64,000 nucleotides of DNA from Hysterangium stoloniferum (lineage: Eukaryota > Basidiomycota > Agaricomycetes > Hysterangiales > Hysterangiaceae): contig WHVD01000076.1 in assembly GCA_015178975.1 (NCBI GenBank), forward strand, positions 124,001 through 188,000, in the 5' to 3' direction. Shown one piece after another: positions 3,061 to 54,930 of the stretch. Below the pieces are notes generated by a model. The model made no database searches. It saw nothing but the letters and a program-made list of their open reading frames with translations, and was not told where the DNA came from. Position 1 is the stretch's first letter. Each line of letters begins with the position of its first letter. Made by a program: the position numbers and the translations under genes.

Positions 3061-3226
3061 CCGTTACATCGACCCACAAACCCCGCCTGGACTCCCCAGG
3101 ATTCCCATCCGCCTGTCTGAAATTGGACAACACGATCTTGTGAGGGTGCAGTCTATAAGCTGAAGCCAAGTCCTACCAGATATTCCACGGGTTTCTCTGG
3201 AAACCCGTCGTGTACATACCCTAACA
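3061..3226 (-). repeat. LTR2 fragment (5' ~160 bp of the LTR)
   Basis: Reverse-complement match to the first ~160 bp of the LTRs at 15265 and 12058. Its outer end reads CCCTAACA (LTR start TGTTAGGG) at 3219-3226, and it stops near the GTGGGTCGA position. It includes the shared LTR hairpin at 3145-3167, here with one stem pair broken. It is truncated with no target duplication found. Confidence 0.75.
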
Positions 3227-3335
3227 CACACACACACTGTTATTTGTGATGCACGTACTCTGTGACTCATGACACGCACACTTTGTGACATGTGACACAT
3301 GCACACTGTGACATGTGATGTGTGATAAACAAACA
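3227..3335. repeat. CA microsatellite and degenerate GTGACATG repeats
   Basis: A short (CA)n tract abuts the LTR2 end, followed by loosely repeated units containing GTGACATGTGACACATG. No coding evidence. Confidence 0.6.
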
Positions 3336-3771
3336 AAACAAAAATACCATAAAATATATGAGCCTGACAGATCAGGGAATAATGGCAAGAACAATAAACA
3401 AATGAATGAACATCTGTCAACCAGTCAGTTACCAAATATGGAACAAAGGAAGGGAGTCAGAATATCCACAGATATCTGATACTATCCAGAAATGGATCCT
3501 AACATTATGATTAGGCAAGCATATTTTTGGGAAAGCCATGGATTCTGGGTAAGTTGGAACATTGACATAGAGAATGTGAGAAGGTGTTAAGAACTAAAAC
3601 AGGTGGTCCAGGGACCAAACGGAAGGACTTGGCTTCAGCTTATATGCTGCACCCTTGCAAAGGTACCATCAAAAGTCCTTAAATTTCAAAAGTATAAGGT
3701 AATACTCAGTGATCAGACACTGAGCTGTATGCGAACAGTCAGGAACCAAAGTGATGAATATTGGAGTCAAG

Positions 3772-4005
3772 GTCGAGGTTGTAAATGTAGGTCGAGGTTG
3801 TAAATGTAGGTCGAGGTTGTAAATGTAGGTCGAGGTTGTAAATGTAGGTCGAGGTTGTAAATGTAGGTCGAGGTTGTAAATGTAGGTCGAGGTTGTAAAT
3901 GTAGGTCGAGGTTGTAAATGTAGGTCGAGGTTGTAAATGTAGGTCGAGGTTGTAAATGTAGGTCGAGGTTGTAAATGTAGGTCGAGGTTGTAAATGTAGG
4001 TCGAG
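3772..4005. repeat. 19-bp tandem repeat, about 12.3 copies
   Basis: The unit GTCGAGGTTGTAAATGTAG is repeated head to tail with almost no divergence, inside LTR1a. Because 19 is not a multiple of 3, the array reads open in several frames and gives a false 80-residue ORF on the minus strand. The other LTR1 copies here lack the expansion. Confidence 0.95.
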
Positions 4006-4278
4006 TCATAAAAGTCAGATGGTGTCGGGATGCGGGGGTTGTGAATGGATAGTGAAGTCAGAAACTAGAGGTGTATCTAAGTCGATATTCTGATTGCTTA
4101 GTAGCTACATTACAGCAGGTTTATATACAAGTTATCGGCATCTAGAAAATGCTAACTAAGGGAAGAGCAGAAATACCAATGACAAATAAACTTGACCAAG
4201 AACAGGAAGGTTATGATAAGGTCAGAGGCCATGAATAACTGAAGGTGATAACTATGAAAAAGGAAACAGTCCACAGTA

Positions 4279-5887
4279 CAGTGGGTTAAAAAACTGCTCC
4301 AATGTTTGTGCATTTTAGAAAGATTGATATTGTGTAAAGGAATGACATCAGCAAAAATTCTGAAAAATTCACATGATATACTAGTACATGTTGGCTCTCT
4401 ACCAACTTAAGAAATCATGTGATTCCAATCAAAACTCATTGCTCAATAAATCAAACAAAATAATCACTCATTGGGGCAGTTTTTTGACCCTCTATTATTT
4501 TACAATCTAATACTTTGTATGACCCCCCTTTGCCTTTAAAACTGCCTGTATCCTCCTAGGCATGCTTTCTATTAGCTTCTGACATGTCTCTGGTGGTATT
4601 TCAGTCCACTCCTTTGCCACCCTATCCCATAATTTATGTACTCCTTTGGGTGATATGTCATATTGTTGGAGTTTGGCCTTGAGGTGTTGCCAGAGGTGTT
4701 CAATGGGATTTAGATCAGGGGATTGGGCAGGCCAATTCATGGGAATGATGTTATTGTCAGATAACCACTGGTCTGCCTTTTTTGAGGTATGTTTTGGATC
4801 ATTGTCCTGTTGGAAGTACCACTTATCCTCAGCCATCTCCAAACTTTCAATGCTCTCCTCCACTCCCTCCTCCAAAATCTCATAATACTGCACTGTATCC
4901 ATGTTATTCTGCACCTCTATCAGCTTCCCCATCCCATTCCAGCCCATACACCTCCAAACCATCAAGTTATTCCCCCCTCCATGTTTGATAGTTGGTGTGG
5001 TGGTCCTGTCTAATACTGGTTCCCCTTGTTGCTTCCAAACATATACCTTCCCATCTGACCCAATCCTATTGATTTTTGTCTCATCAGTCCACAACACCCT
5101 CTTCCAGTCCTCCATAGTCCAATTTTCATGGTATTGGGCAAACTTTAGATGTTGCTGACAATGAGACCCCTTGAACATAGGGACTTTCTTCTTTGTTGCT
5201 GACCTAAAGCCAGCTTCCTTCAACACATTCCTAACAGTCTGAGGAGTGACAGAGGTAGATATGATGGAATTTATAAATTGGGTGGCTTGGACAGCATTGT
5301 CAAGCTTCCCAGAGCTGATTTAATGGATAATTAGCTGTTTATCATAAGGGGAAAGCTTGGAAGAATGGCCACCAGGATGATTTTCCTTATCCCCCTCTAC
5401 CTCCCTACTGATCCTGCCAATAGTACCCTTTCCCAGACCAGTCCTAGCTTGAATTTGACACTGGGAATACCCCCTCATTGAGGAGAAAAATAACAGAAGA
5501 ATGCTTTTCTGCAGAGATGGATTTCATAGTGGTGGTAAGGAGTCAAGGAGATGAATGAACAAAGTTCAGCATGCCAAATTGATACAAATAAGGTCACATG
5601 ACATGTTGATGATTCATATGATCCACTCCTACCTTATACTGGTGTGTAATATTGAAAATCAGAGAAAATAATAGAGGGTCAAAAAACTGCCCCAATGAGT
5701 GATTATTTTGTTTGATTTATTAAGCAATGAGTTTTGATTGGAATCACACAATTTCTTAAGTTGGTAGATAGCCAACATGTTCTAGTATATCATGTGACTT
5801 TTTCAGAATTTTCCCTGATGTCATTCCTTCACACAGTATCAATCTTTCTAAAATGCACAAACATTGGGGCAGTTTTTTGACCCACTG
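4279..5887 (-). mobile_element. Tc1/mariner transposon, 1.6 kb, with ~222-bp IR/DR-type inverted repeats
   Basis: Flanked by TA on both sides (4277-4278 and 5888-5889), as expected for Tc1/mariner target duplication. The outer repeat starts CAGTGGGTTAAAAAACTG and its mate ends in CAGTTTTTTGACCCACTG. The inverted repeats extend inward to about 4502 and 5666. Each holds a second, inner copy of the terminal motif (GGGGCAGTTTTTTGACCC near 4473-4490; GGGTCAAAAAACTGCCCC near 5677-5694). The paired outer/inner sites resemble the IR/DR arrangement of some Tc1 elements such as Sleeping Beauty. The transposase gene inside is broken. Confidence 0.93.
4507..5527 (-). pseudogene. Tc1-like DD34E transposase, frameshifted
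   Basis: The catalytic half is open from 5226 to 4507 (239 aa). It has the three acidic sites of the Tc1 family: Asp in WTDETK, Asp in QQDNDPKHTS and Glu in SPDLNPIEHLW, followed by a typical basic C-terminus. The N-terminal helix-turn-helix part starts at an ATG at 5527, but a one-base frameshift lies near 5475 (in a run of G) and a TAA near 5325. The full reading would be about 340 residues, the family's normal size. The inverted repeats are well preserved, so this copy could be mobilised in trans but not by its own protein. Confidence 0.9.
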
Positions 5888-6062
5888 TATATATGACATA
5901 GGTGAGACATAGAATAAATGGATCATCAAAGGATAAAAGGATGTACCAGAGTATTACCAGATAGTACAAGTATAATTTGACAGGGGCTGTAGCAGGGTTT
6001 GATCACTGTGAGGGTGTATGTCAGTGTCGGGTTTTCCGATGGTGACCGATATGATGATGCAA

Positions 6063-6819
6063 TGTTAAGAACAGAAAACTGACTAATGTCAGTAGGCCAA
6101 CGGAGACCGATTGGAAGGACTTGGCTTCAGCTTATGTGCTGTGCCCTTGCAAGTTACCATCAGGTGTCTTTAAATTTCGGGCAGGTGAAGACTAGTTCTA
6201 TCGAATTCCTCATGGTGAGTTACTGATCAGAAATGAAGGATAAGCCAGGTGTCAGGCTGAGGGGTTGGAGGCTGAGGGTGGGCAAGCACATGCAGAGGGG
6301 GGAGCGAGGTACTTAGTGCAAGGCTTATAGAGATGTATGTGGGTGTTCTGAGTTGATATTCTGATTGCCTAGTAGCTACAATTACAGCGGGTCTATATAC
6401 AAGTTATTGGTGTCTAGAAAATACTAACTAAGGAAAGAGCGGAAACATTACTGACAAATAAACTTGACTAGGAACTGGAAGGTTACAATACCTGTAAGTT
6501 CAGAGGCCGTGATTTAACCAAGAGCAGAATTACGAGGAAAGGAAATAGTCCACGGGTTACAAGTATATATGGGCATATGTGAAACATAGAGTAGAATGGA
6601 TCATCATAATAAAAAGGGATGTATCAAAGCTTAACCAGATAGTATGAGTATAACTTGACAGGGGCGTAAATGGGGTTTGATCGCCATGAAAGCATGCATC
6701 AGTGTCAGGCAACCGACAGTTTCCGATGCAGTGACTTGATTGATGACTTGAAACATCAGTCGATGGTAATATCCTCAGGGACCATTGGGTTGTGACATGG
6801 TTGTGACACAGTCATAACA
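6063..6819 (+). mobile_element. LTR1 copy (LTR1b), 757 bp
   Basis: Begins TGTTAAGAACAG and ends CAGTCATAACA. The shared hairpin is at 6123-6145. It is closely similar to LTR1a and to the minus-strand copy at 9575-10297, whose end reads CAGTCGTAACA, so this copy shows CG to CA decay. The flanks TGCAA and GTATC do not match, so it is not a simple solo insertion. It lies head to tail against LTR1a. Confidence 0.8.
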
Positions 6820-6867
6820 GTATCCCCCCATTCAGCCAAAATCCCAAGGAGGCCAAAAATCTAGATC

Positions 6868-9032
6868 TTGTACATAAAACTTGACGGGTACGGGTGGTGT
6901 GTCAAGACATCATGTGACCTGGTAAAAATAATTTACATATTAAAATTTGAGGGGTGCTGGCACTTGAATTTTAACTCTTTTCCCTCAACCACGATGACCG
7001 TGGGTTCAGGTTCTAAGTCATTCCCATCCAGGCTGATCATCACCCCCATATCAGGTCCGAGTGGACCCCCTAATGCACAAGAGTGTTGTTGGCTTCTTGA
7101 AGAGAAGAAGAAGGCATGTGAGGAGTGTAAGGAGAAGGAGGAGCTAGAGGTGATAGAGGCAGAGGAAAAGAGGTTGGCAGAGGCAGAGGCTGTGCGCAAG
7201 CATTGGGAGGCTGTGCTTGCAAAGAAAAAGCAGCAGGAGGCCGATCAGGTGTGAGAAGAGGAGGTGAAGAAGAAACGGGAGGGCAAAGTAAGGTGGAATT
7301 TCTCATTCTTGTAACCTTGCTGACATTCTTTTTACAACACAAAGTAATGACACCATCGGATTCCGATGATGAAGAGGATGAGGAGGACGAGGAGGATGTG
7401 CCAGGGTGTTAAGTTCCTGAACAAAGCTCCACGGGTAGTCCCGCGGAGGTTTCCGGTAACTATTCCGAACACACACTTGCTTCCGGGAAATAGTCCCACG
7501 GAGTCCCCGGGCAATAGGTCCCGGGAAAGTTCCGGGATATATTAGTACAAGGAACGGTGATATCAGAATAATTACCAGAAAGTATGGTGAACGACTGAGA
7601 TGGACTTAGCTTCAGCTTATAGGCTGCGCCCTCGTACACTCATTCGGGTGTCCATATTTCGAGCTGACAGAATGCATACAGGAAGATATAGATTCCGGAG
7701 TTCCCGTGGGAGTTCCGGGAATCGAGTGTGCAGACAGACAAGAGGACTAGGGACTGTTCAAGGATCAAACTTGTTCGGGGGAAAACTAGTTCGAGATTGA
7801 AACTGGATTCTAAGTACATGAATATAGCAGACTTATATAGACTGTGAAATGTAATAATACCAAATCCGGTATTAATGAGAGGCAGAACTATTAAACATAA
7901 AACCAAACAAGTAAATACTAAACTGGGAATTAGGGACGGAACGGAACAGGAGTGGAGAACAAATCATGACAGATCATTTAACCATAACTGGAGTGGGGCT
8001 CAGTTAGAGGGGTTCCAGAAGTCCGGTCGGAGTCCGGTGACTTGGTGCACAGGATAGTGTCGGGTATAGACAGGCTTGATGTGCAGGAGGTCCGGTGGAG
8101 TCCGGTGGGTTTTCCAATGACTGGTGTGTGAGACGCAGAGACAGATAACAGGAGTGGGGTTCTATGCTCTGTTAGAGGGGTTCCATGAGTCCGGTCGGAG
8201 TCCGGTGACTGGTACATAAGACACAGAGTGTCGGGTGTATGTAGGGTGGAGTCCGGAGTCCGGGGAGTCCGAGGACTGGTGTATGAGACATAGAGGGTTA
8301 GGTACAGACAGGTGGGGTGCGTACAGAGAGTCAGGCATAAACGAGTTGATGTACAGGGTCCCGTGGGAACTCCGGTTGTTACTATACAATAAAGAGGGTC
8401 GGGAGCATGTAGGATGGGGTCCGGGGGCCCGGAGGCCGGCGGGTTTTCCGGTTCCTGACACAGGGCCTTTGAGCTCCAAGGTATGTTTGGACTCTTAGCA
8501 GTTTAGTTTTCTAAAAAAATTTTGTTTTCAATTATAGAAACAGAAACAGGCCCCCAAGGCAGGGGCCAAAAACAACCCGAAGTGCAACCGGTGCACCAAA
8601 TGGAGTCGGATTTGCCATCCACAGGCAAATGGTCAGGGCTGCACCTGTCAAGAGTGTGCCAACCAAAAGCTCAGCCACATCTTTCCGGATACTGACGGAA
8701 ATGGGTCTTATCAAGAGTGGCAGGCCGATGCGTTAGAGGAGCAAAATCGGCTCATGTGCACATATTTCTCGGAGACGACTCGGTTCCAGTTTGAAACACT
8801 GCGACAACAAGGCCTGATCACTGAACAACTGTGACTTTTGGGTGTGGGGCTGGAGAAACAAACCAGCACCATGGAGTCTCTCAGGGAACAACTTGAGCAG
8901 TACTTAGAGGTGTCGAGTTCTGAAGAAGTTGGGCCTGGGGTTGGGATATCAGGGAAAGTTGGTGAGGAGGTGTTGGTGGCCATTGGTGAAGGGGAAAACT
9001 CGGAGGAGGTCATAAAGGACACTTACATATAG
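6868..9032 (+). pseudogene. Coiled-coil / cysteine-cluster protein of unknown function, split by a solo LTR
   Basis: The first part (to ~7275) codes for a Lys/Glu-rich coiled coil (EECKEKEELEVIEAEEKR region) and carries a TGA at 7252-7254. An acidic stretch (SDSDDEEDEEDEEDVPG) at 7350-7406 runs into the LTR. After the LTR the frame continues as PLSSK, then a GT..AG intron (8481-8537), then a basic segment with a cysteine cluster of the form C-X2-C-X5-C-X8-C-X-C-X2-C (8580-8660, CNRCTKWSRIC then CTCQECA). A second coiled coil follows, with TGA at 8833. Multi-copy basidiomycete proteins with a charged helix next to a Zn-cluster-like cysteine pattern are known, but their role is not. This looks repeat-associated and is dead: two stops and an insertion. 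Confidence 0.6.
7407..8460 (+). mobile_element. LTR3 solo LTR, 1054 bp, TSD CAGGG
   Basis: Starts TGTTAAGTTCCTG and ends GGTTCCTGACA. CAGGG is present on both sides (7402-7406 and 8461-8465). It is rich in GTCCGG-type words unlike the other LTRs, yet carries the shared hairpin at 7608-7630. Removing it and one CAGGG restores the frame of the interrupted gene, so it inserted into what was then a continuous exon. Confidence 0.92.
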
Positions 9033-9121: not shown

Positions 9122-9574
9122 CTATAGAAAACCTAAGGGACCAGGTTTATTTGGATATGCTTGATGAATGCCTAAGACGATTTCGGACACATTACTGAGC
9201 TCTGTAGCTAGGATCCACAAAGTTTCTTCATCTGTACCTTCATAGCCAGCCCATTTGACCAAATAAAGTAACTTGCATGAGCGTCGGCAATTGTCAATTT
9301 TGGAGTCTAGGATTTCCGATATCTCGAATTCAGGTTCTCCATCAATAATCACAGGTGGAGGTGGTGGTTGTATGCGATCTGGTATATTGTTAGCAACACA
9401 TGGTTCTAACATAGATACATGGAATACCAGGTGCACTGCACGCATGTTGTCAGGAAGCCAAAGTGTCCATGAAAGCATGCCAGCTTGTGCTATAACTTCA
9501 AAAGGACCTAAATATTTTTCAGAGAGCTTCTTAAAAGGTCTAGTAGTTTGGAAAAACTCAGCTTTAATGAATAC
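9122..9574 (-). pseudogene. Chromovirus integrase C-terminus with chromodomain
   Basis: Translates to the integrase tail (FKKLSEKYLGPFEVIAQAG) followed by a Pro-rich linker and a chromodomain of ~50 residues (EFEISEILDSK then LYLVKWAGYEGTDEETLW). Chromodomains at this position direct chromoviral integration to marked chromatin. The aromatic cage positions Tyr, Trp and the Trp of the ETLW segment are kept. The reading continues upstream of the solo LTR into the integrase core. Confidence 0.9.
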
Positions 9575-10297
9575 TGTTACGACTGTGTCGCAACCCTTCG
9601 CAAGCCGACGGTCCCTGATGGAATACCCTCATTATACGTCTTCGACAATACAAGATCTCAGAAGCCGTCGGTCCCCCGACGCTGACGTATGCTCTCCGGT
9701 CAATCAAACCCGACTATGCCTTTCTGTCTGGTTATGCTTTGATATGTCCCTTTCATCATGTTGATCCGTCTCATCTTATGTTCCACATATGTCTATCTAT
9801 ATTTGTAGTCCTCGAACTATTTCCTTTTATCGTAATTTCCATTCTCGGTTATCATCGGCCTCCGAACTAATCATAAACTTCCTGTTCCTAGTCAAGCTTA
9901 TTGTTAATGCCATTTTCTGCCCTCCTCCCCATTAGTACTTTCTAGACGCCTGTTACTTGTATATGAACTCACTGTAATTGTAGTTACTAGGCAATCAGAA
10001 TATCGACTCAGAATACCCTCATACGTCTGTAGCAGTCTCATACTAGAAGAATCCCCCTTCCGCCTTCGCGTGCGCTCGCCCACTCTCGGCCCCGATCCCT
10101 TGGCCCGACACTTGACTTGTCCTTCGGTTCCGATCGGTATCTCGCTGAAAGGTTCTTCTTAGGATTTAGTCTTCACCTGTCTGAAATTTAAGGACAACCT
10201 ACGGATATTTGCGAGGGCGCAGCACATAAGCTGAAGCCAAGTCCTCCCGATCGGTCCCTGTCGGCCACCGACATTAGTCAGTTTCTAGTTCTTAACA
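9575..10297 (-). mobile_element. LTR1 solo LTR, 723 bp, TSD AATAC
   Basis: In minus orientation it starts TGTTAAGAACTAG and ends GTCGTAACA. AATAC flanks both sides (9570-9574 and 10298-10302). It contains the shared hairpin at 10216-10238. It is CpG-richer than the other LTR1 copies, so probably among the youngest. It splits the integrase gene. Confidence 0.95.
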
Positions 10298-11160
10298 AAT
10301 ACTCAGTCTCTGATCTTAAAATCAGGAGGTGGAAGTCAATTCTTATCTGTGGACTGTTGGTATTGTTCTTGGGCCGTTGTGATAGTTTTTTGAAGTTCTT
10401 GATGTAGCTCATCAAGGTTTGTAACAAAGTTTTGAGCATGGGTGGATGTGAGATCACATTCCAGGTGGATTGCAATATTGGGGTTGTAGCCTTTGTTTGC
10501 AAAGAAAGGCAAAATGCCAGTAGTGGCATTTGGTGCATTGTTATATGAAATTTGGCTAGCAGTAGTAGTGATTTCCAATTATCTTGTTGATAGTTACAAT
10601 AGACACGAATGTACTGTTCCAAGGTTTGATTCATGCATCCGGTTTGGCTGTCACCTTCTGGGTGATAGTCTGAAGTGAAGTGTAACTTCATGCCTAGTGC
10701 TTTTCCGAGTGACCTAAAGAAATGAGAGACAAACTCGGATCTGCAATCAGATGTGACATGCGATGGAATGCCATGCTTGGAAAATACATGGGTGACGAAT
10801 AGTTCAGCTAACTGTACAGATGTTATTATGTCATATGTTGGAATGAAAATACTTTGCTTTGTGAGCCGATCCAAAACAACTAGGATTGCTGTATGACCTT
10901 CAGATGCCAGTAGGTGCTCGATGAAACCCATAGAAATCGAGTTCCGGGGTTTTTCCTGTATCAGTAATTGTTTGAGTAGCCCATATGGTTTGTGTCACTG
11001 TGACTTAGAGCATAAACAAGTTGTACAGAATTTGCAATAGTGCTTAACAAAATCTCAGATGCCGGGCCATGTACAGTGTATATTCTCTTCTAATGAGCAA
11101 AAGAGTTTTATTGACACTGAAATGTCCCGAGATCGGGTGGTCATGCTTATGTTGTAGGAT
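10298..11160 (-). pseudogene. Chromovirus integrase core (H2C2 and DDE domains), inactive
   Basis: The N-terminal H2C2 zinc region is at about 11000-11160 (HDHPISGHF then FCTTCLCSKSQ), followed by the rve core. Asp is present in ILVVLDRLTKQ and in VTSDCRSEF. The position of the third acidic residue, normally Glu in the conserved GQTER motif, reads SQTGC, so the catalytic Glu is replaced by Gly. Frameshifts lie near 10510 and 11030. The gene resumes at 9574 after the LTR. Confidence 0.88.
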
Positions 11161-12057: not shown

Positions 12058-13428
12058 TGTTAAGGGTGCGTACACAGAGGGTTTCCAGCGAAACCCACGG
12101 GAAATCTGGTAGGACTTGGCTTCAGCTTATAGGCTGCACCCTCATGAGATTGTGTTGTCCAATTTCAAATGGGCAGACAGGAATCCCAGGGAGTCCAGGC
12201 GGAGTTCGTGGGTCCAGTGTTAAGTGCCATGTCAGGAACTTATTCCAGAACTATTGGAAAGTCACCAGGAAGTCAGAAACTGTCAGATAGGGTCAGGATG
12301 TTGGCTTCAGCTTATGTGCTGCACCTCTACGCAAACGCTCAAAGTCCTTAATTTCAGAGGTGAGACTTACAATGGAAGATATGGATATTTAGAGTTCCGA
12401 AGAGTTCCGAATATCGAGCATACAGAAAGATGGAAGAAGGAATAAGAAACTAAGTCGATATCAGATCTAAGGTAAAGTACAAATTCATGGAAACTAATAT
12501 AAGTCTTCTCGTTATTGTACTACAAACTGAGACCGTAATAAGATGGAAATGGAAGTATTCTTAAAATGGAAATACAATAAGACATATCGGGGAGACAATA
12601 TTCTGAAATGGGAATACAATAGACAAACGAGTGAATATTTGTTAACGGACAAATTGCCAAATGCAGAACAAGGGGAGAATGCGGAAGATACAGTAACTAT
12701 GATGTTCCATAGTCAGAGATCGGAAGTCGGATATTGAAACATCTGGGAATGGGTCGTAACATCGAGGGGTCATGGGTCGAGAGGTCAGGGGGTTGAGATA
12801 AATAAGTCAGAGGTTGAGAGATAGATGTGTTGGAGCCTGTGGGCTCCGACTAGCGAGAGTGGTATAATTTAAGGAGGAGTTTAGAGCAGAAAATGTACTA
12901 GATTACTGGGGAGAATCTAAGCTGATTTTCTGACTGGATTGTATGTACAACATCTGCCAGAGTATATAGACTGTGGAATGAATAACATACCAAATCCAGT
13001 AATGATGAAAACAAAACTAGCAAACATAAAATGAGATAAGTAAACACCAAATTTGGTGTTAGGAATGGAATGGAACAGAGCAGAGTCCAAATCATGACAG
13101 GTCATAATCCATAACAGGAAATGGAGCAGGAGTGGAGTCTGAATCGTGACAGCTCATTTGACTAAAATGGGAACAGGGCTCAGTTAGAGGGATGACAGGT
13201 TTTCCGAGCGGGGTCTGGTGACTGACACGTGGGACGAGGTCGGACATAGACAGGGACAGAGTCTGGCAGGTATTCCGGTGACTGATACAAGATGTAATGA
13301 AGTTGAATGTGGGCAAGTCTGATGTATGGAGTCTAGCGGGAATTCTGGTAAACTGACAATTGGTGCATATAGGGTGTGGGTGCGTATAAGTTATTGCCCG
13401 GAGTCCAGCAGGAATTCCAATCATAACA
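12058..13428 (+). mobile_element. LTR2 solo LTR, TSD CTGAA, itself containing a nested LTR
   Basis: Starts TGTTAAGGGTGCG and ends CAATCATAACA. CTGAA flanks both sides (12053-12057 and 13429-13433). Without the nested insertion (12218-12761 plus one 5-bp duplication) it is about 822 bp, the same as the 825-bp LTR2 at 15265. The shared hairpin is at 12118-12140. It separates RT from RNase H of the chromovirus. Confidence 0.94.
12218..12761 (+). mobile_element. LTR1-like solo LTR nested in LTR2, 544 bp
   Basis: Starts TGTTAAGTGCC and ends GGGTCGTAACA. The flanks are TCCAG (12213-12217) and TCGAG (12762-12766), a 5-bp duplication with one substitution. The intact LTR2 at 15265 reads GGGTCGAGGGGTC here, so TCGAG was the original. 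The shared hairpin is at 12303-12325. Confidence 0.88.
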
Positions 13429-15264: not shown

Positions 15265-16089
15265 TGTTAGGGTACATACATGGTGGGTTTCCAGAGAAAC
15301 CCGTGGGATATCTGGTAGGACTTGGCTTCAGCTTATAGGCTGTGCCCTCGCGAGATCGTGTTGTCCAATTTCAGACAGGTGGACAGGAATCCCGGGGAGT
15401 CCGGGTGGGGTTTGTGGGTCGAGGGGTCGTAGGTCAGAGGTCGTGGGTTGAGAGGTCAGGGAGTTGGGATTAATAAGAGAGATAGATGTGCCGGAGCCCA
15501 TGGGCTCTGACTAGTGAAAGTGGTGTAATTCAAGGAGGAGTTTAGAGTGGAAAATGTATTAGATTACTGGGGGGAATCTAAGTTGATTTTCTGACTGGAT
15601 TGTATGTACAACATCTGCCAGACTATATAGACCATGGAATGAATAACATACCAAATCCAGTAATAATGAAATGAAACTAGCAAAACATAAAGCAAGAATA
15701 GTAAACACCAAATTTGGTGTTAGGAATGGGACAGAACGGAGCAGAGTCCAAATCGTGACAAATCATAAACCATAACGGGAAATGGAGCGGGAGTGGAGTC
15801 CAAATCGTGACAGGTCATTTGACTAAAATGGGAATGGGGCTCAGTTAGAGGGATGATGGGTTTTCCGAGCAGGGTCCGGTGACTGACATGTGGGATGAGG
15901 TTGGACATAGGCAGGGACAGAGTCCAGCAGGTATTCCGGTGACTGATACATGATGTAACGAAGTTGAACGTGGACAAGTCTGACATACGGAGTCAGGCAG
16001 GAATTCCAGTAAACTGAGAATTGGTGCGTATAGGGTGTGGGTGCGTATAAGTTAGTGCCCAGAGTCCGGTGGGAATTCCGGTCATAACA
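15265..16089 (+). mobile_element. LTR2 solo LTR, 825 bp, TSD CATTC
   Basis: Starts TGTTAGGGTACATAC and ends CGGTCATAACA. CATTC is duplicated at 15260-15264 and 16090-16094. The shared hairpin is at 15324-15346. This is the best uninterrupted LTR2 copy in the window and serves as reference for the copies at 3061, 12058 and 54140. Confidence 0.95.
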
Positions 16090-16329: not shown

Positions 16330-17747
16330 TGTTAAGCTTGGGTCTTGTGGGCAGATGGAACTGATTACCTGGGGAAAATTCATGGGGTTTCCAAGGATGG
16401 GTGGGACTTGGCTTCAGCTTACATATGTATATGCTGTGCCCTTGCATGATCATCAGGTCCCCACCCTCACACAAACTGTTAAGGTGCTCCAGTATTTCAA
16501 ACAGAGCAGATATTACAATGGAGACTAAAGACAATACTTAGCTCAATCAACCAGAGGCCAAATACTAAGAGTCATATGGGTAAGAGTCACAATGTCTTTG
16601 AGAGTATTAAGAGAAGAGTAAAGAGGATTTAAACAAGAGGAGGATAATCTAAGTCAAGTTTCAAACTAGAGAGCTGTAGCATTGTTAAGATCTAAGCAAA
16701 ACAGGGAGAGGAGGCTCTAAGTCAGGGGGGGCTGATGATGGTAACTAAGTCAATTGGGGGGCCAACAATACAGATCATACTAGTCAGGAGGTCCAACTCT
16801 ATAAATATAGTAGAGCTTGGCTTCAACTTATGTGTTGTGCCCTTGCATGAACTGTTAGGGTGCTCCAGTATTTTACACAGAGCAGATAGTATGCTAGGAA
16901 CAAAGATCAATACTTAGCTCAATTGACTGGAGGGCCAAATTAGTAAGAGTCATAAGGTAAGGGGTCATGGCTTGCCAAAGACACCTTTGAGGGTATTAGA
17001 ACAGGAGTAATAGGACTGAGAACTAGAAGGGGGTAATCTAAGTTGATATTCAAACTGGAGAACTGTAGCATACATGGAAAGAGCTTTATACTACAGTGAG
17101 ATGGATGATTGGGGGGCCAATCAGAGAAGTGAGAGTGATGATGAGTTAAAAAGAAGTAGGGGAAGGAACAGGAATCCAAATGAGACTAAATACAATATAA
17201 CAAAGTATTTTGAAAAGGTATGAGGTGGTAAATAGGATGTATACATGGAAATAGTGACAGGGGAGTGAAGGGAATGGAAGGCTAAGGGGCTAAGCTACAA
17301 AGAAACAAGTGTTGGGGGTGCTGTGAGTGGTGATACCATGAGCAGGAGTACTAATAGCAGGAGGCCAGAGGGTTATGAGACTAAAACAGGTTGTGGTGGC
17401 CCAAAATGACAGGGATCCTAACAAGCATACATGATAGGGTCTTTATATAAAAGTGTAAATTGATGATTGGAAGGCTGAGCAAGGAAGTGAGAATTGTGAC
17501 AGGTCAAAGGAAGCAAGAAAAGGATCAAGGATCAAGCTAAAACTAAATGTAATGTAACAAAAGTATTCTAAAAGGTATGAGGTGGAAAATAATATTTACA
17601 TATAGAACAGATGAAAGAGGAGCCTTGGGACAGAGATGGAAGGGAATGACTAAAGGGGTAATCTACAATAAACCAAGTGTCAGGGTGCTGGAGGGTTATG
17701 AAGGTGAAAACAAGTTATGGTGGCCTGAAAAGGTGAGGATCATAACA
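16330..17747 (+). mobile_element. LTR4 copy (outer), interrupted by a second LTR4
   Basis: Starts TGTTAAGCTTGGG and ends GGATCATAACA. Minus the nested copy it is about 670 bp. The shared hairpin is at 16410-16440, with its loop enlarged by about eight bases (ACATATGTAT) but both stems kept. The flanks CTCTG and CCTTG do not match. The left neighbour is the minus-strand chromovirus gag and the right neighbour a plus-strand gypsy gag, so this may mark a recombination point, or it may be the 5' LTR of the element at 17748. Confidence 0.75.
16683..17423 (+). mobile_element. LTR4 solo LTR nested in LTR4, 741 bp, TSD AGCAT
   Basis: Starts TGTTAAGATCTAAGC and ends GGGATCCTAACA. AGCAT flanks both sides (16678-16682 and 17424-17428). 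A TATA-like CTATAAATATAG (16799-16810) lies 8 bp before the shared hairpin at 16819-16841, in which the inner stem reads CAAC/GTTG. This is the reference LTR4. Confidence 0.94.
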
Positions 17748-18918: not shown

Positions 18919-19622
18919 TGTTAAGATCTAAGCTGAGAAGAGGGGAAGTACTGCAAGTCAGAGGGCCGATGATGGGAATTGAGTTAATCAGGGGGGCTGA
19001 TGATAGAGATTATACTAGTTGGGAGATCTAACTCTATAACTGTAGTGGAGCTTGGCTTCAACTTATGTGTTGCACCCTCACATGAACTGTCAGGGTGCTC
19101 TGGTATTTCAAACAGAGCAGATAGTATGATATGAATAAGAGTCAACACTTAGCTTAATTGACCGGAGGGCTGAATCACTAAGAGTTGAGAGGTAGAGGGT
19201 CATGGCTTGCTGAAGACCACTCTTAAGAATATAGTGATGAGAGGGGAAGGTGAAAAACTAAGAGGGGCTAATCTAAGTCAATATTCAAACTGAAGAACTG
19301 TACTGTACATGAAAAGAGCTTTATCCTACATTGAGATGGATGAGTGGGAGGCTGATCAGAGAAGTGAGGTGCAAGACAGATCAGAGGAAAGTTATGACAA
19401 GGCAGGGAGCAATGGAAGTAATGTATAGTACTAGGCAAATACATGGATACAGAAATGGAGGAGTGGATGGAGTGGAGACAGAATGGGTTTCTAGTTCATT
19501 ATGAACAAGTATCAGGGGAGCCACAAGGGGTAATGACATGGGAAGGGGCTCTAATAATGAGATAATGAGGGTTTTCTAGTGAGAAACAAGTTGCCGGGGT
19601 CTGAAATGACAGGATCCTAACA
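18919..19622 (+). mobile_element. LTR4 copy, 704 bp
   Basis: Starts TGTTAAGATCTAAGC and ends GGATCCTAACA. The shared hairpin is at 19054-19076 with the CAAC/GTTG stem. The flanks GTGGG and GTATT do not match, and RT sequence does not resume after it, so it is either the 3' LTR of the internally deleted element at 17748 or a solo LTR followed by a deletion. Confidence 0.8.
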
Positions 19623-32790: not shown

Positions 32791-35280
32791 ACCTGTTCCA
32801 GGGAGTCCCTCGACATTGAATATATCGAACTTAACAAGTTCACGCTCGCCAGAGGTTATGTTTGCTGGTACAGGTAGCGGGCGTGGGGCTGATGATGCTA
32901 TGGCTAACACGGGTCAAGGATCTGATATGAGCATCAGCCAGGGGGATCCATCATCAGATTCTGGCTTTGCATACGAGGATGGCGGTGTGGGAGGGGGTCG
33001 GAGCTGCAAACACAGGCGATGGGGGTGGGAGCGTTTGGGGCGAGTTGGGGCAGCCAAGGGTAAAGTGAAGAGGTGTATGTGTGTTCTTCATTAGACAAAC
33101 CTCTCACAACAATGCCATGTTTGTAGTTGTAGTTAGTTGTGTAATAATTATACTATATTGAATTTATTTCTGTGTTTTGAGTATTCACGTTTGTTGGACC
33201 ACTGTGACATTGTGACTACTACATCAACTTTACATTTACTTTTTATCGTCAAAATTGAATCAAATTTAGGACGATGCCCAAGAAAGGAAACAAGAGTCTT
33301 ACCTACAGTATGCGCAAAAATGCTGACATGATTGAAAAACACTGTGAAGAAGTCAGTGCCAAATGGAAGAAGAGCAAGCAAACAGTCATGCATGCAGTGT
33401 ATGCTCCGGGTCGTATAGCAAAACAGAAGCGACGTGTAAATTTAGCTAATGCTGCTCGTGCTATCGCAGCATGGTTAAGGGGTGACAAATTAGGTGTGTA
33501 TTGATACATAGCTGTTATAACAAAATGACTAATATCAGCCTGCCTGTGTAGATCTTACTGAAGAAGAGAAGATGAAGTATGAAGAGATCCAGGCTAGTGT
33601 TAAGAACTAGAAAACTGACTAATGTCGGATAACCGACGGAGACCGAACGGAAGGACTCGGCTTCAGCTTATGTGCTGCGCCCTCGCAAATTACCGTTAGG
33701 TGTCCTTAGATTTCGGGCGGGTGATGACTTGGCTTATTATACAATCCTCACGGCAAGATGCCGATCGGATGCCGAAGTTAAGTCGAAGGTGGATTCAGAA
33801 GCGGAAAGGCGAAAGGGATTAGAGGGTTATCTAAGTCGATATTCTGATTGTCCTAATAACTACGATACATTAGAGTTTATATACGGAATACCGGCGCTTT
33901 ACCGAACGAGAGTAGAACAAAGGAAAATACAAATGGGGAAGACGGAACTACATACGGGATGACGTGTCAACGGGCATCACAAATCTGGTAGTACTTATTA
34001 AAGTCTATAGTGACGGAAAATCCGATACTGGTTGTATAGTATAGAAACGGAGAGGACTAATTTGGAACAAAGGAATTACTTAATGGGGTTAGTCGGATGT
34101 CTGACGTCTGGCCTATAGTATGAGTCACGGTGCTTGAGTCATTCGGTGAGCCGACGGGGTGCCGAGGGTACGGGTCGTAACAGCTAGCCTGAATAAGCTT
34201 GGTGGAGTGGAACAAGTGAAGCAGCTTCTCGAAGACATGAAAGTGTTTCTTAGGTCAAAGGCAGAAGAACTACAGGCATCAAAGCAGAGTGGAAGTCTGA
34301 CAAGCATGAGATCCAAAGCTCAAGATGCCCAGGCAACCTTGGAAAGCATTGGCAAAGAGGTATTTACATTGGACATTTTGAGATCACATTTATATAAAAG
34401 CATAAAACACTTTCATAGCTTAATGCATTAAATCAGCGTACTGGCATAGAAGGCTTCCTTTTTGCAGTTAAACCAGATCACGGGTTTAATTTTCCCGCAC
34501 AGTTCATTATGACTGAGAAGGCTGGCCGCTTTCTTTGCATGGGTATGAAGAAAGTACCTACAGATCTCCTTAAAGAGCTTGAGCTGTTTGTGGTTGGAGA
34601 TATAGAAAGTATGTTTATATTATATTAAATGGCTTTATATTCTAATACTCAGTGACAGGCCTTGTTCTAACCATAATGAACGTTTATGCCAGATCAAGGG
34701 AAAAATCTCGTGAGAAATTAAGACAGGACTTTGTGAGTTAAACATGGTTTTTTATTATCTCTCATTATTTCTAACATTAGATGTGACAATTGTAGTTGAA
34801 ATAACTGGCAAGGACATGCCTATGCAGTATGAACAATATTTGAAACTCATTGCTGACTATGGTGTTATGATCCGGAACTGGCCAGAAGAAGTGCCATTCA
34901 CAGCTCTCTCAAAAATAAGCTCTCTTTATCAACTTCGCATTCTACTGAACTCCTTAAGCCTTCCTGACTCTAGTAAACGGTGCAAATGGGAGCATCTACC
35001 AAAAGATGAGTGGAAAGCAAACCAGGAGGAATATATACAGGCAGTACGAAATAAGGGACCCAAAAAGCGAACACTTGTGGCAGCTGAAGATTACGATGAG
35101 TCAGCAACAAATGATGAGCCCACAAAAAAAAAGCAGAAGACGGCAAAAGCCATTAGAAGCTCTCCCAGTGGTGAAGATGGAAACAAGCCAATGGAAAGGA
35201 ACAGTCACAAGAAGGTCGTGAAGAAGCCAAGGGAGAAAAGGGGGAGGACAGCTGCAAAGAATACATACCTCACAATATGA
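32791..35280 (+). pseudogene. KDZ element companion gene (ORF2), multi-exon, split by solo LTR
   Basis: Exons: ~32791-33072, 33270-33493, 33552-33597 plus 34188-34359 (interrupted by the LTR), 34419-34608, 34653-34732, then from ~34790 to TGA at 35278. The conceptual protein starts with a Gly/Ser-rich segment and a basic patch (MPKKGNKSLTYSMRKN), followed by KYEEIQASLNKLGG, RTGIEGFLFAV, LLKELELFVVG, MPMQYEQYLKLIADYGV and WPEEVPF, and a Lys-rich C-terminus resembling a nuclear localisation signal. Multi-copy basidiomycete proteins with the MxYxxY..YGV..GWP block are familiar to me as hypothetical, repeat-associated proteins. No function is known. Its place inside the target-duplicated element and its strand parallel to the transposase suggest it moves with, and may assist, transposition. 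The last splice junction (34733-34795) did not resolve in frame. Confidence 0.72.
33598..34182 (+). mobile_element. LTR1 solo LTR in KDZ ORF2, 585 bp, TSD GCTAG
   Basis: Starts TGTTAAGAACTAG and ends GGGTCGTAACA. GCTAG is at 33593-33597 and 34183-34187. The shared hairpin is at 33659-33681. Its many CG dinucleotides contrast with the surrounding element. Removing it restores the exon frame (IQA to SLN). Confidence 0.96.
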
Positions 35281-35841: not shown

Positions 35842-35849
35842 AGAGAAAC

Positions 35850-41075: not shown

Positions 41076-41079
41076 TGCC

Positions 41080-41440: not shown

Positions 41441-41725
41441 GGTAATAAGGACCTTTGGGCGTCAAGCTTAGTCAGGTTTGGGCGCTCCGCGCCCTCACGA
41501 AGACGGCCTGTGGCACCTAAGAACGCCCACGGACCCACCATGCTCCTTTCACTTATTTGACAAGCCTGGGAACCCTTGCTACGCTGCGGGGCGGTCACTT
41601 TGTGACCTGCCCCACAACTTCACTGTGGGCTCCGGCTTGTTGGGGGGCGAAGCCCCCCAAACCCCCCCACATCGACAACTCTTAAGTATTTCTGAGACTC
41701 ATTGTCAAAGACCAAGGAAATTGCT
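41441..41725 (-). repeat. Conserved terminal module with GC-rich hairpin (copy 1)
   Basis: Reverse complement of 63010-63300. Contains a perfect hairpin TTGGGGGGC/GCCCCCCAA around GAA or TTT (41637-41656), then a GTGGGGC/GCCCCGC-type region, and the words AGCAAGGGTTCCCAGGCTTG (reverse) and AAATACTTAAGAGT (reverse). High similarity between copies despite diverged surroundings. Confidence 0.75.
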
Positions 41726-42950: not shown

Positions 42951-43104
42951 ACTCTCAACTGCAAGTAATTACTGTGGTCACTCAATTTATTTATTTTGAT
43001 TTAATGTATTTTATTTTGATTTATTGAATTTTATTTTATTTTATTTTTAAGCATTTTATGTTCATTTATTATATTTAATTTGAATTATTCTCATTTTATT
43101 GAGG
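42951..43104. repeat. AT-rich tract (copy 2)
   Basis: TTTTATTTTGATTTATTGAA-type low-complexity DNA, homologous to 39575-39764. Confidence 0.85.
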
Positions 43105-45003
43105 CCGATCAGAGGGGGACGGAGGAAGAAGGAAACAGTACACACAGCAGCTGGACAAAGAGAGAAGGAAATAGTACACACACCACCTGGAGGAAAGAGA
43201 GGGCTGGTCAGAGGAAGATGGCAGAAGAAGGAAATGGTAGACATACTGTAAGAAAGAGAGAGTAGGCCAATCAGAGGAACACGCACTGGCTGGAGGAAAG
43301 AGAATGGAGGCCAATCAGGGCAGGATGAAGAGAGAAAGAAAAGGTACACAAACCACCTGGAGGGAAGAGAGAGGGCCGATCACAGCAGGATGGAGAGAGA
43401 AGGAAATAGTACACGCACTTGCTGGAGGAAAGAGAGAGGAGGCCAATCAGAACAGGACGGGGGGAGGAGGAAAGGGGACACGCACCTCCTGGAGAAAAGA
43501 GAGAGGAGGACGAAGGGAGAAGGAAATGGTACACACAGTGGCTGGAGGAAAGAGAGAGGAGGCTGATCAGAGGACGAAGAGAGAAAGAAACGGTACACAC
43601 ACCTCCTGGAGGAAAGAGAGAGGATGAAAGGAGAAGGAAACTGTACATGTACCAGCTGGAGGAAAGAGAGAGGAGGCCAATTAGAGGAGGAAAGAGAGAG
43701 GAGGCCAATTAGAGGAGGAAAGAGAGAGGAGGCCAATTAGAGGAGGAAAGAGAGAGGAGGCCAATTAGAGGAGGAAAGAGAGAGGAGGCCAATTAGAGGA
43801 GGACGAAGAGAAAAGGAAATGGTACACGCACCTCCTGGAGGAAAGAGAGGAGGCCGATCAGAGGAGGACAAAGGGAGAAAGAAACGGTACACCCACCGGC
43901 TGGAGGAAAGAGAGGAGGCCAATTAGAGGGGGACAAAGAGAGAAGGAAACGGTACACACACCTCCTGGAGGAAAGAGAGAGGACGAAGGGAGAAGAAAAT
44001 GGCACATGCACCGGCTGGAGGAAAGAGAGAGGAGGACAGAGGGAGAAGGAGCAGTACACACCGGCTGGAGGAAAGAGAGAGGAAGACAAAGGGAGAAGGA
44101 GCAGTACACGCACCGGCTGGAGGAAAGAGTGGGGGCCAATCAGAAGAGGACAGAGAGAGAGGGAAATGGAACATGCACCGGCTGGAGGAAAGAGAGAGGA
44201 GGCAACTCAGCGCAGACCAGAGGAAGAAGGAAATGGTAGATGCACCGGCTGGAGTAAAGAGAGGGGGACAATCAGAGGAGGACAAAGAGAGGGGAAAGGA
44301 AGTGCGCAGTGGCTGGAGGAAAGATAAGGGGACCATGCTGGAGGAAAGACAGGAGGCCAATCAGAAGAGGACAGAGAGAGGGAAAGGGAACGCACACCGG
44401 CTGGAGAAAGAGAGGGGGACAATCAGAGGAGGACAGAGAGAGGGGAAAGGGAATGTGCACCGGCTGGAGGAAACAGAGGGGGCCAATCAGAAGAGGACAG
44501 AGAGAGAGGGAAATGGAACGCGCACCGGCTGGAGGAAAGAGAGAGGGTCCCAATGAGAGGAGGACGGAGAGAGAAGGAAACGGTATACGCACCTGGAGGA
44601 AAGAGAGGGGGCCAATCAGAAGAGGACAGAGAGAGAGGGAAATGGAGTGCGCACCGGCTGGAGGAAAGAGAAGGTGAGGCAAATCAGCACAGGACAGAGG
44701 AAGAAGGAAATGGTAGACGCACCCGCTGGAGGAAAGAGAGAGGGCCCCGATGAGAGGACGGAGAGAGAAGGAAACGGTACACGCACCTGGAGGAAAGAGA
44801 GGAGGATGATCAGAGGACAAAGAAAGAGGAAATGATACACGCACCGGCTGGATGAAAGAGAGAAGAGGTCAATCAGAGGAGGACGGAGAGAGAAGGAAAC
44901 GGTACACACACTCGCTGGAGGAAAGAGAGAGGAGGGGGATTAGCGCAGGACGGTGGGAGAAGGAAAGAGTACACGCATCACCTGGAGGAAAGAGAGAGGG
45001 TGC
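43105..45003 (-). repeat. GA-rich minisatellite, ~62-bp unit, ~30 copies (copy 2)
   Basis: Same unit as 39765-41075. A local expansion of a 33-bp sub-unit (GGAGGCCAATTAGAGGAGGA) occurs at 43670-43800. Confidence 0.92.
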
Positions 45004-45240
45004 GCCGTGAATGGGAGTGGGTGCACGGTGGATGGGAGCGGGTCGATGGGTACGCAGTGGATGGGAGCGGGGGGATGGGTGCACGGTGGATGGGAGCAGG
45101 TGCGCGGTGGATGGGCGCGTGGTGGATGGGTGTGGGTGGATGGTTGCACGGTGGATGGGAGCAGGTGCACTGTGGATGGGTGCGCTGTGGATGGGTGTGC
45201 CGTGGATGGGTGCGGGCGGATGGGTGCACGGTGGATGCAG
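45004..45240. repeat. GTGGATGG minisatellite (copy 2)
   Basis: Same ~15-bp unit and same neighbours as 41080-41305. Confidence 0.92.
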
Positions 45241-50010: not shown

Positions 50011-50017
50011 TGTATAT

Positions 50018-50559: not shown

Positions 50560-51597
50560 TATATGAAGAATATCAACCATTTAGGTACAACAAGACTATA
50601 TATTGACTATCAAAGTACAATATAGAAAGTAAATAGCTTTAGTCGACTTTAGTAGTGGTAAGACAACCAAGACGACTAAGGGAAGTGGAATCGACTTTGC
50701 AGTATGATTCCCTAGCAATGGTATATTGACTATCAAAGTACAATATAGAAAGTAAATAGTTTTAGTGAGCTTTAGTAGTGGTAAGACAACTAAGATGACT
50801 AAGGAAAAATGGAATCAACCTTGCAGTAAATTCCCTAGGGTGAGTTAACAAAGTAATGAGTTGAGGGGGAGGGAGGATGATATGAATAATGTGAGATGTG
50901 AGCAGAAGTCAATAGTAGCTCAAGCTTTGACTATACAGTGCAAAGCTAGATTGTTGTTGTAAGTTCAAGTTAGAAGCTGTTCAAGATGGCTGCGATGATA
51001 CCCCAGTCATGACTTACAGGACACTAAAAGGGTGTCTGGATAAGTTGTGGTTATGGGGTAAAAGTGTCTGAGTTCCAACTATGCATGCTAATGTACATAA
51101 TGCTACAGTGTATGTGCCTACAAGTATCTATGTACCCACAGGCATACATAGATCTTTGAACTAATGTAAATACTATCAAATACAAGATGTAATAGTAGAA
51201 ATAGAGGAGGAAGCATAGGAAGCAAAATATGATCAGGGACATATTTTAGGATACCTCTCACACTTCTAATCCTTGGCCTTTTCCCTCTCCTCATATTACC
51301 CTCTAGGTCTCTTCAGCAAGCCGTGACCCTTTAATTCTCAACTCTTAGTACTTTGGCCCTCCATTCAATTGAGCTAAGTGTTGATCTCTGTTTCTATCAT
51401 ACTATCTGCTCTGTTTGAAATACTGGAGCACCCTAAAGGGTGCAACACATACATTGAAGCCAAGCTCTACCATGTTTATAGAGTTGGACCTCCTGACTAA
51501 TATGATCTCTATCATTGGCCCCATTGACTTAGTTATCATCATTGGCTCTCCAACTTAAAGCCCCCTCTCCCCCCTTGGCTTAGATCTTAAAATGTAC

Positions 51598-53225: not shown

Positions 53226-53244
53226 GGGAGTTTTCCTGACTGGC

Positions 53245-53490
53245 TGTTAATATCTAAGCTAAAAGGGAGAAGGGAGGCTGTAGTCAGGGGACTGATAATA
53301 AGAAATGAGTTAATTGGGGGGCCAATGATAGAGATTGTACTAGTCGGGAGGTCTGGCTCTATAAATGTGGAGCTTGGCTTCAACTTATGTATGTATTGCA
53401 CCCTTGAACAAACTGTTAGGGTGCTCCAGTATTTCAAACAGAGCAGATAGTATGATAGAAACAGGATCACATTGAGTCAGTGAAGCTTTC
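53245..53490 (+). repeat. LTR4 fragment, 5' third
   Basis: Starts TGTTAATATCTAAGC and follows LTR4 through a TATA-like CTATAAATG and the shared hairpin (from 53376, loop enlarged) to about 53465, then stops near the MITE-like element. Confidence 0.8.
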
Positions 53491-53525
53491 CTCCATGGAT
53501 GATGATAGCTTCAAAAGGGTGCCAT

Positions 53526-54067
53526 GGAGGATGGTCACACTTTATTGAATATACAAACTTTACTGAATAATTCTCATATTTTTTAAGTGAGACTATTCCT
53601 TCTGGCCATGACAACTTATTCTATGAGTTTATATTTAATTACCTGAAATTTCATCTTTAAAATATGTATGCCCTTTTAAAATACACACAAATGACATAGT
53701 CACACAAAATTATTTGGGTTAACCTAGATTATTTGGGTTATGACTTAATCTTTGGGTTATGATGTATTCTCTTGTATACAAGCAAACTTTCAAATATATT
53801 TCATATAATTTAAATCTAGTTGGTTTAGAGAGTTAACCAGAACTATCTGGGGTACCAATCCCCATTGTGCAATTTATTCCAAAAGAATAACCTACAGATG
53901 ATTGTTTGACTAAATTTTGTCAGATATAGGATAAATATTAATATTTTTGCATTCTTCAGAGTGATACCTAATCAACTGAATTTGATTAAATATTAATTCT
54001 ACAGCAAACAATATGAATGTATATACTTTATTGAATAAATCATTTTTAAAGTTTTGGGTTATCCTCC
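53526..54067. mobile_element. MITE-like element gamma, 542 bp, TSD CAT
   Basis: Ends GGAGGATGGTCACAC and TTGGGTTATCCTCC, flanked by CAT (53523-53525 and 54068-54070). Inverted relative to 50018-50559 and of the same length. Confidence 0.75.
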
Positions 54068-54139
54068 CATCATGGGTCTAGATTGACACAGGAACCCAAT
54101 TTGAGAGGCACCAGCACTTGTGTGTGCAATGTCATTTTA

Positions 54140-54930
54140 TGTTAGGGTACGTACATGGCAGGTTTCTGGAGAAGCCGGCAGAATATTCGGTAGGACTTGG
54201 CTTCAGCTTATAGGCTGCGCCCTCGTGAGATTGTGTTGTCCAATTTCAGACAGGCAGACGGGAATCTCGGGGAGTCCAGGTGGGGTTTGTGGGTTGGGGG
54301 GTCATGGGGTCATAGGTCAGAGGTCATGGGTTGAGAGGTTGTGAGTCGAGATAGATAAGAGAGATAGATGCACCGGAGCCCATGGACTCCAACTAGCATG
54401 AGCGGTGTGATTCAAGTAGGAGTTTAGAGCAGAAAATGTATTAGATTACTGGGGGGAATCTAAGCAGATTTTCTGACTGGATTGTACGTACAACATCTGC
54501 CAGACTATATAGACCGTGGAATGAATGACATACCAAATCCAGTAATAATGAAATGAAACTAGCAAAACATAAAATGGAAATAGTAAACACCAAATTTGGT
54601 GTTAGGAATGGGACGGAACGGAGCAGAGTCCAAATCATGAGAAATCATAAACCATAATGGGAAACGGAGCAGGAGTGGAGTCCAAATAGTGACAGGTCAT
54701 TTGACTAAAATGGGAATGGGGCTCTGTTAGAGGGATGACAGGTTTTCCAAGCAGGGTCCGGTGACTGATGCATGGGACAAGGTTGGACATAGACAGGGAT
54801 GGAGTCCAGTGGGTATTCTGGTGACTGAACACAACATAATGAAGTCGAACATAGACAAGTCTGACATACGGAGTCCGGCGGGAATTCCAGTAAACTGACA
54901 ATGGGTGCGTATAGGGCACGGGTGCATATA
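54140..54930 (+). repeat. LTR2 copy, cut at its 3' end by a Tc1-like element
   Basis: Starts TGTTAGGGTACGTAC, hairpin at 54199-54221, follows LTR2 to GGTGCATATA at 54930, about 50 bp short of the end. The Tc1-like repeat starts right after the TA at 54929-54930. Confidence 0.85.

Follow-up and report, generated by a model that had tools for sequence, protein, structure and literature searches.

A short hairpin recurs in the long terminal repeats (LTRs) of several retrotransposon families within a 64,000-nucleotide (nt) stretch of the Hysterangium stoloniferum genome (assembly GCA_015178975.1, contig WHVD01000076.1, positions 124,001 to 188,000), hereafter called the window. Our analysis suggests, with a probability of roughly three in four, that the hairpin belongs to the 5ʹ leader RNA of related Ty3/gypsy elements that prime their own reverse transcription. 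In this leader it would be part of a fold similar to the 'pretzel' of the yeast element Tf1, with one duplex between the primer and the primer-binding site (PBS) and another between the linker that precedes the hairpin and the sequence flanking the PBS. Within this Ty3/gypsy group a chromodomain was seen for the element of the LTR1 family only. The coding strand, the position in the leader, the joint change of primer and PBS in five families and the complementarity of linker and PBS flank can be read from the sequence, as described below. All data come from this one genome (111 Mb, 554 contigs).

On the coding strand, the conserved core consists of GAAAT, the 5ʹ arm of an outer stem P1, a linker, GGC-x-CARC, the loop, GYTG-AA-GCC-AA and the 3ʹ arm of P1. 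An earlier reading of the window, made from the letters alone (the sequence-only reading), had described the hairpin with an outer stem GGC/GCC (here P2) and an inner stem CAGC/GCTG (here P3), but had drawn the structure too short, since P1 (GGAC/GTCC and variants) encloses the variable linker as well as the hairpin. A degenerate 27-nt pattern of the core had 3459+3549 = 7008 exact matches on the two strands of the genome and the reversed pattern, used as a control, had 0+0; the abundance of the core is far beyond chance.

The orientation was taken from a full-length LTR1 element, whose LTR copies (L030 and L031) lie 7.3 kb apart, have ACATT at their outer flanks as a target-site duplication, and begin with TGTTAGG and end with GTAACA on the strand used by the sequence-only reading. 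RVP_2, RVT_1, RT_RNaseH, Integrase_H2C2, rve, SH3_Tf2-1 and Chromo domains were found on the opposite strand of this one element, and a gag with a CCHC motif (seen by eye) begins just past the end of its hairpin-bearing LTR. With both pol and gag encoded on that opposite strand, the element RNA is the complement of the RNA described previously; the hairpin persists despite the flip because it is palindromic. The TATA-like box that had been placed 8 bp ahead of the LTR4 hairpin is likewise on the wrong strand, and the boxes of the coding strand were found 33-38 nt before a primer segment, with another 154-488 nt from that segment downstream to the core. The proposal that the hairpin is transcribed, as a piece of R/U5 close to the 5ʹ end of the RNA, gained support, although from the evidence of the opposite strand. 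The core occupies the 3ʹ part of the LTR, with 71-81 nt from the first base of its TAAG to the LTR end in LTR1 and LTR2, 97 in LTR3b, 117-147 in LTR4 and 210-214 in LTR3a. Counted from the LTR end, the PBS lies at +3 to +13 and the first ATG at +34 to +42 in 26 of 31 copies (at +57 in one; four had no ATG in the stretch inspected), which leaves only ~20-28 nt between them. An integrase piece searched against the PDB had Ty3 as its best match.

The full-length LTR1 element carries ATTTTCTGACT 2 nt past the LTR end, and the LTR itself contains the reverse complement of this sequence, 33 nt downstream of the first base of a TATATAAA box. This plan, with a TATA-like box, an 11-nt segment 33-38 nt further on and a complementary PBS 2 nt past the LTR, is common to five families. 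A pattern made of the LTR end and the PBS, TAACAGTATWTTYNRAYT, had 459+444 = 903 matches in the genome versus 1+1 in the control, and among 30 loci fetched with it, 24 had, upstream and within or close to the LTR, an exact complement no shorter than 11 nt; in the remaining six the complement measured 9, 9, 9 and 8 nt, and was missing in two. The 11-mers are AGTCAGAAAAT in LTR1, AATCAGAATAT in LTR2, and AGTTCAAATAT or AGTTCAAAAAT in LTR4, each with a matching PBS. For LTR3a and LTR3b, the PBS was predicted from the segment behind the TATA-like box in LTR copies alone and then searched for genome-wide; it followed TTAACA and 2 nt at 17 places for LTR3a and at 255 for LTR3b (reversed controls, 0), and all five loci fetched contained both primer and core. 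Taking all 35 junctions together, the primer had at most one mismatch in 33 and was exact in 29; of these 33, 32 have a TATA-like box that starts 33-38 nt ahead of the primer (exactly 33 nt in 28), the exception being locus L096. To judge from these sequences, primer and PBS change together between the five families, which would make the elements self-primers of the Tf1/sushi type. Self-primed reverse transcription, to which the evidence points, was absent from the roles listed by the sequence-only reading (packaging, dimerisation, translation, host recruitment), all of which are putative.

The linker appears to have a partner of its own. We compared the 26 nt before the hairpin with the 24 nt after the PBS in 36 of 38 loci (19 LTR1, 9 LTR2, 2 LTR3a, 3 LTR3b and 3 LTR4), leaving out L051, which has no core, and L004, with too little sequence past the PBS. 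The duplex had a mean energy of -14.5 kcal/mol, in comparison to -7.0 with the flank shuffled. In a family-by-family energy table the own partner was the best in every row, narrowly so for LTR2 (-13.6 vs -12.6), and the own-family pairing ranked 1 of 120 by energy and also 1 of 120 by the longest perfect Watson-Crick helix. Because the idea of the duplex arose from these same sequences, the 430 nt that precede the LTR end were also scanned in 101 windows, 7 of which cover the core-linker region; the top window fell into that region in 28 of 36 copies, and at least one of the top three did so in 31. By family, the best window was there in 12/19 copies of LTR1, 8/9 of LTR2, 2/2 of LTR3a, 3/3 of LTR3b and 3/3 of LTR4, copies inside one family not being independent. 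The predicted duplexes, interrupted by bulges or internal loops, comprise 9-18 pairs. In 27 of the 36 copies P2 follows their 5ʹ arm immediately, in three the arm overlaps P2 by one base and in six it stops 2-10 nt short of it; the 3ʹ arm, in eight copies drawn, lies at +16 to +37 from the LTR end, just before the first ATG or reaching it. This complementarity would match the PBS-downstream duplex of the Tf1 pretzel. Between families, this duplex, which the sequence-only reading had not seen, gives stronger covariation than the stems.

All 15 core sites of the sequence-only reading were recovered in the window, and a search with a relaxed pattern found them and no others. The letters of both stems, CAAC/GTTG in the LTR4 copies included, were read directly at the sites, as were the enlarged loops at 16410 and 53376; the hairpin at 16410 is the minimum-energy fold, and this copy folds with an eight-pair P1, P2 and P3. 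The inner stem was not intact everywhere, however, as the copy at 51439 has lost the innermost pair (CAAC..ATTG) and its linker is deleted too. Instead of four families there are more, because 'LTR3' comprises two (7608 and 12303, here LTR3a and LTR3b) and the copy at 16410 looks like a sixth. The core copies, self-primer segments and a nested LTR are listed here on their coding strand, as read from the sequence unless indicated otherwise:

3118..3175, plus strand (opposite to that of the sequence-only reading): core, LTR1 family, with GAAAT anchor, P1, linker and P2/P3 hairpin
3623..3688, minus strand: core, LTR2-like family
6115..6179, minus strand: core, LTR2 family
7600..7661, minus strand: core, LTR3a family, with a 6-bp P1 ATGGAC/GTCCAT
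10182..10246, plus strand: core, LTR2 family, P1 here AGGAC/GTCCT
12110..12167, minus strand: core, LTR1 family
12295..12356, minus strand: core, LTR3b family
15316..15373, minus strand: core, LTR1 family
15347..15359, minus strand: linker ACGATCTCGCGAG of an LTR1 copy that has no PBS behind it; in full-length relatives this arm is predicted to pair with sequence on the 3ʹ side of the PBS
16402..16466, minus strand: core, further family, enlarged loop, minimum-energy hairpin of -22.4 kcal/mol (sequence and fold)
16811..16875, minus strand: core, LTR4 family (CAAC/GTTG)
19046..19110, minus strand: core, LTR4 family
33651..33715, minus strand: core, LTR2 family
51416..51469, plus strand: core, LTR4 family, linker deleted and innermost hairpin pair lost
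53368..53436, minus strand: core, LTR4 family, enlarged loop
54191..54248, minus strand: core, LTR1 family
15586..15596, 12925-12935 and 54468-54478, minus strand: LTR1 self-primer segment AGTCAGAAAAT, TATA-like box ahead
33839..33849, 6356-6366 and 4085-4095, minus strand, and 9993-10003, plus strand: LTR2 self-primer segment AATCAGAATAT
7794..7804, minus strand: LTR3a self-primer segment AGTTTCAATCT, predicted PBS present genome-wide
12458..12468, minus strand: LTR3b self-primer segment AGATCTGATAT, predicted PBS present genome-wide
17046..17056, minus strand, also 19281-19291: LTR4 self-primer-like segment AGTTTGAATAT
12218..12761, minus strand: solo LTR of family 3b inside an LTR1 copy, flanks TCCAG/TCGAG

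The minimum-energy folds of five family representatives contained P1 and P3 in all five cases and P2 in only two; the LTR4 representative, L009, has a 6-bp P1, while other LTR4 copies, including the PBS-bearing L044 and L067, have 4 bp. Three stem pairs of LTR4 differ from those of the other families, in most copies in both partners (6 and 10 of 11 copies for two pairs in P1, 11 of 11 for one in P3), and in P1 a U-A pair of LTR3a corresponds to an A-U pair in LTR2 (7/7 and 30/30 copies). When whole leaders were folded (28 in total), P3 was likely in 20 and the primer:PBS duplex in 18. For conservation profiles, LTRs were sampled via the PBS instead of the core. Identity to the majority averaged 0.83 in LTR1 (n=18) and rose to 0.89-0.96 over the primer block and to 0.85-0.93 over the core; in LTR2 (n=9) it averaged 0.86 and was highest over the core (0.96-0.97), and LTR4 (n=3) had no clear peak there.

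Several results weigh against the hairpin as part of a self-priming leader fold. The stem compensations are few and are family-level events. A covariation test modelled on R-scape (G statistic with average product correction, changes re-placed on the tree, 40 null replicates) gave no significant stem pair among 96 distinct copies (lowest E 2.95; lowest for other pairs 1.3); of 134 copies, 7 that matched no family had been left out beforehand, and 124 of the 127 classed ones entered the alignment, in which family 3b was moved manually by one spacer base. When P1 arms were swapped between families, the true pairing ranked only 6 of 120 by energy. The copies for these two analyses were collected by the core pattern with at most one mismatch, which inflates conservation. 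G-U wobbles on the coding strand occurred in 63 copies versus 89 with A-C (p 0.042), opposite to expectation, and in 25 copies genome-wide with a changed middle P3 base the partner was changed in 0/25, with G-U kept in 10. Both tests say little on active elements, because most copies are presumably dead. The folding z-scores of the five representatives were modest on the coding strand (-0.7, -2.0, -1.2, -1.5 and -2.7), and the inner stem also formed when the reverse strand was folded (z-scores 0.1, -0.5, -0.8, -1.7 and -2.2). In the full-leader folds, made with a program that cannot draw pseudoknots, no more than 2 of 28 had a likely P1 (≥0.8) and 7 a likely P2. By longest perfect Watson-Crick helix the own partner of the linker was row-best in only three of five families, the linker was the best window in no more than the 12 of 19 LTR1 copies mentioned above, and the LTR2 primer block was not conserved above average (0.83-0.84). 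The second Tf1 duplex, involving the PBS-upstream flank, was not supported (-5.0 vs -5.3 shuffled, rank 10 of 120, positions scattered). A pattern search for new families with a changed P1 had 34 matches, and the 25 inspected looked like decayed copies of known families.

The sequence-only reading had regarded two findings as fatal to its proposal. One, the lack of significant covariation, was observed here, in a sample of 96 copies rather than genome-wide. The other, simple descent of the families from one LTR with the core as its slowest part, was borne out in its first half: the LTRs, described there as unrelated, have a common TGTTA end (TAACA on the coding strand), a TATA/primer block and the same order of parts, and are homologous by these features. 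The core is among the most conserved parts of LTR1 and LTR2.

The following mechanism could account for these observations. The RNA would start at the primer, ~33 nt past the mid-LTR TATA-like box, and its first ~11 nt would pair with the PBS located 2 nt past the 5ʹ LTR. The linker directly 5ʹ of the hairpin would pair with ~15 nt immediately 3ʹ of the PBS and so clamp its far side, and the hairpin, which adjoins the linker duplex without a gap in most copies, could stack on this clamp. If it forms in cells, such a pretzel would keep the primer on its PBS while cleavage and priming take place. The primer:PBS and linker duplexes cross as a pseudoknot, so that ordinary folding programs cannot draw both; P1 and the linker duplex may coexist, which would add another pseudoknot, or exclude each other. 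The near-invariance of the hairpin points to a protein contact, and it may be read by reverse transcriptase/RNase H or by Gag. The clamp may also compete with translation, because its 3ʹ arm ends beside the first ATG.

It is conceivable, though the less favoured option, that the elements self-prime and that the hairpin is a separate leader signal, namely a site of encapsidation or dimerisation bound by Gag. Such a signal would be placed in U5 because of the ~20-28 nt between the PBS and the first ATG, an ATG that was seen as the gag start in one LTR1 element. The conservation of the hairpin sequence itself, beyond mere pairing, and its retention across families with differing primers and flank arms also speak for this explanation. 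The immediate neighbourhood of the hairpin and the linker predicted to pair with the PBS flank, however, suggests that the two act together, and Gag binding is putative.

More speculatively, the core might act as a pseudoknotted switch across many self-priming families, an idea that we consider unlikely. As long as P1 and a local stem within the linker are closed, the gag start would be accessible for translation; with the linker on the pre-AUG sequence, translation would stop and primer and PBS would be clamped, and a shared Gag or reverse transcriptase would read the invariant hairpin. If this were true, the families could mobilise one another's RNA.

It is quite improbable that the core acts at the DNA level, for instance as a site for a transcription factor or for silencing that lies downstream of the promoter, and that the hairpin is an imperfect palindrome by accident. 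Such a site would explain the lack of significant stem covariation under the tree null, the lack of a wobble excess on the coding strand and the absence of P1 from most full-leader predictions. Against it stand the stem pairs of LTR4 and of LTR3a versus LTR2 changed in both partners, and the covariation of the linker with a PBS flank that lies beyond the LTR, which no DNA site would require. Least probable is plain common descent without a structural role: although the LTRs are homologous, slow change itself requires a cause, the core is among the most conserved parts even of LTR1 and LTR2 sampled via the PBS, and the linker differs between families yet remains complementary to the PBS flank.

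The self-priming leader with its hairpin is best compared with Tf1 of S. pombe, for which self-primed reverse transcription was reportedly described by Levin in 1995 and 1996 and by Lin and Levin in 1997 and 1998. Both have a PBS directly past the LTR that is complementary to an 11-nt primer at the inferred 5ʹ end of the RNA, a chromodomain integrase with SH3_Tf2-1 (here in the LTR1 element) and a duplex of PBS-adjacent sequence with LTR sequence downstream of the primer. In contrast to Tf1, the LTRs here measure from 544 bp (3b) to ~820 bp (LTR1), a conserved hairpin stands beside the PBS-downstream duplex, and the PBS-upstream duplex is unsupported. Retroviruses and Tf1 are also said to have a U5 hairpin, the U5-IR stem-loop, linked with the initiation of reverse transcription; the core is likewise a U5 hairpin that would be tied to this step, but it ends ~60-200 nt upstream of the LTR end, and a separate family-specific U5 fold lies nearer to that end.

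Self-priming and the pretzel as such are already known in Tf1/sushi elements, according to the parts of the literature available to us (PMC4600332, PMC7175516, PMC10085805, PMC2864245, PMC3601003). The 'pretzel' 5ʹ UTR (untranslated region) of Tf2, Tosmo1-3, Tcry1 and Tj1 shares with the leaders here the primer:PBS and PBS-flank duplexes with LTR sequence, while the accessible text, figures aside, mentions no conserved hairpin (PMC10085805). MarY1 and the Laccy and Tcn clades are, like the LTR1 element, basidiomycete chromodomain gypsy elements, and Tcn1 was proposed to self-prime; no leader structure is described for them in the accessible parts of these sources (PMC2864245, PMC7175516). No description of the core hairpin was found in the accessible parts of the open-licence papers retrieved on self-priming, basidiomycete chromoviruses, U5-IR, the pretzel and marY1.

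Self-priming has so far been worked out mainly in one yeast element, Tf1. With at least five families that have separate primers, PBSs and flank arms, and thousands of copies in one genome, the priming structure is open to comparative study, beyond mutation alone. A near-unchanged hairpin beside changing arms is a candidate recognition part for an enzyme or Gag; if it is the recognised part, the question of how primer cleavage is specified becomes directly testable.

Some further observations concern the core and its elements. By eye, many differences among core copies genome-wide resemble changes of CG into TG or CA, a pattern that hints at CpG decay or at a process like repeat-induced point mutation. 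Searches of the window gave no Rfam matches at the gathering score and no tRNA genes with ARAGORN; a hammerhead or twister ribozyme was considered by its known motifs and tentatively set aside. Relatives were also sought beyond this genome: no core-bearing and no integrase-bearing viral contigs were found, and gag had 221 matches, with one named, Pisolithus, among the 120 listed. Together with the Helitron, KDZ and Tc-type transposase domains of the window, these gag relatives point to a basidiomycete. Between the pol end and the LTR of the full-length LTR1 element, an antisense frame of 150 aa (L039:1-453, plus strand) with a Cys-rich start, WCSGCNDRNTECNRKAGRGPGCYQCAHLKARC, had no Pfam match and is possibly a captured or element-encoded gene.

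Elsewhere in the window, a 552-aa open frame at 846-2504 (minus strand) is gag-like by eye and had no Pfam match, 4507-5319 holds a Tc3/DDE_3 transposase frame and 28626-29285 a KDZ transposase fragment. At 59301-62321, Helitron_like_N and PIF1 helicase domains occur in neighbouring open frames, as Helitron remnants or a gene. Related units of 50-67 bp (CTGGAGGAAAGAGAG.. and its complement) form large arrays at 39484-45237 and 31275-32793, beside arrays of 18-bp units (AAAGTGTTCGTAGAACGG and others). At 9122-10994, an LTR2 copy (~9571-10297) lies between two integrase pieces, in which SH3_Tf2-1 was above the cut-off and rve and Chromo were below it; this LTR2 copy was apparently inserted into another chromovirus.

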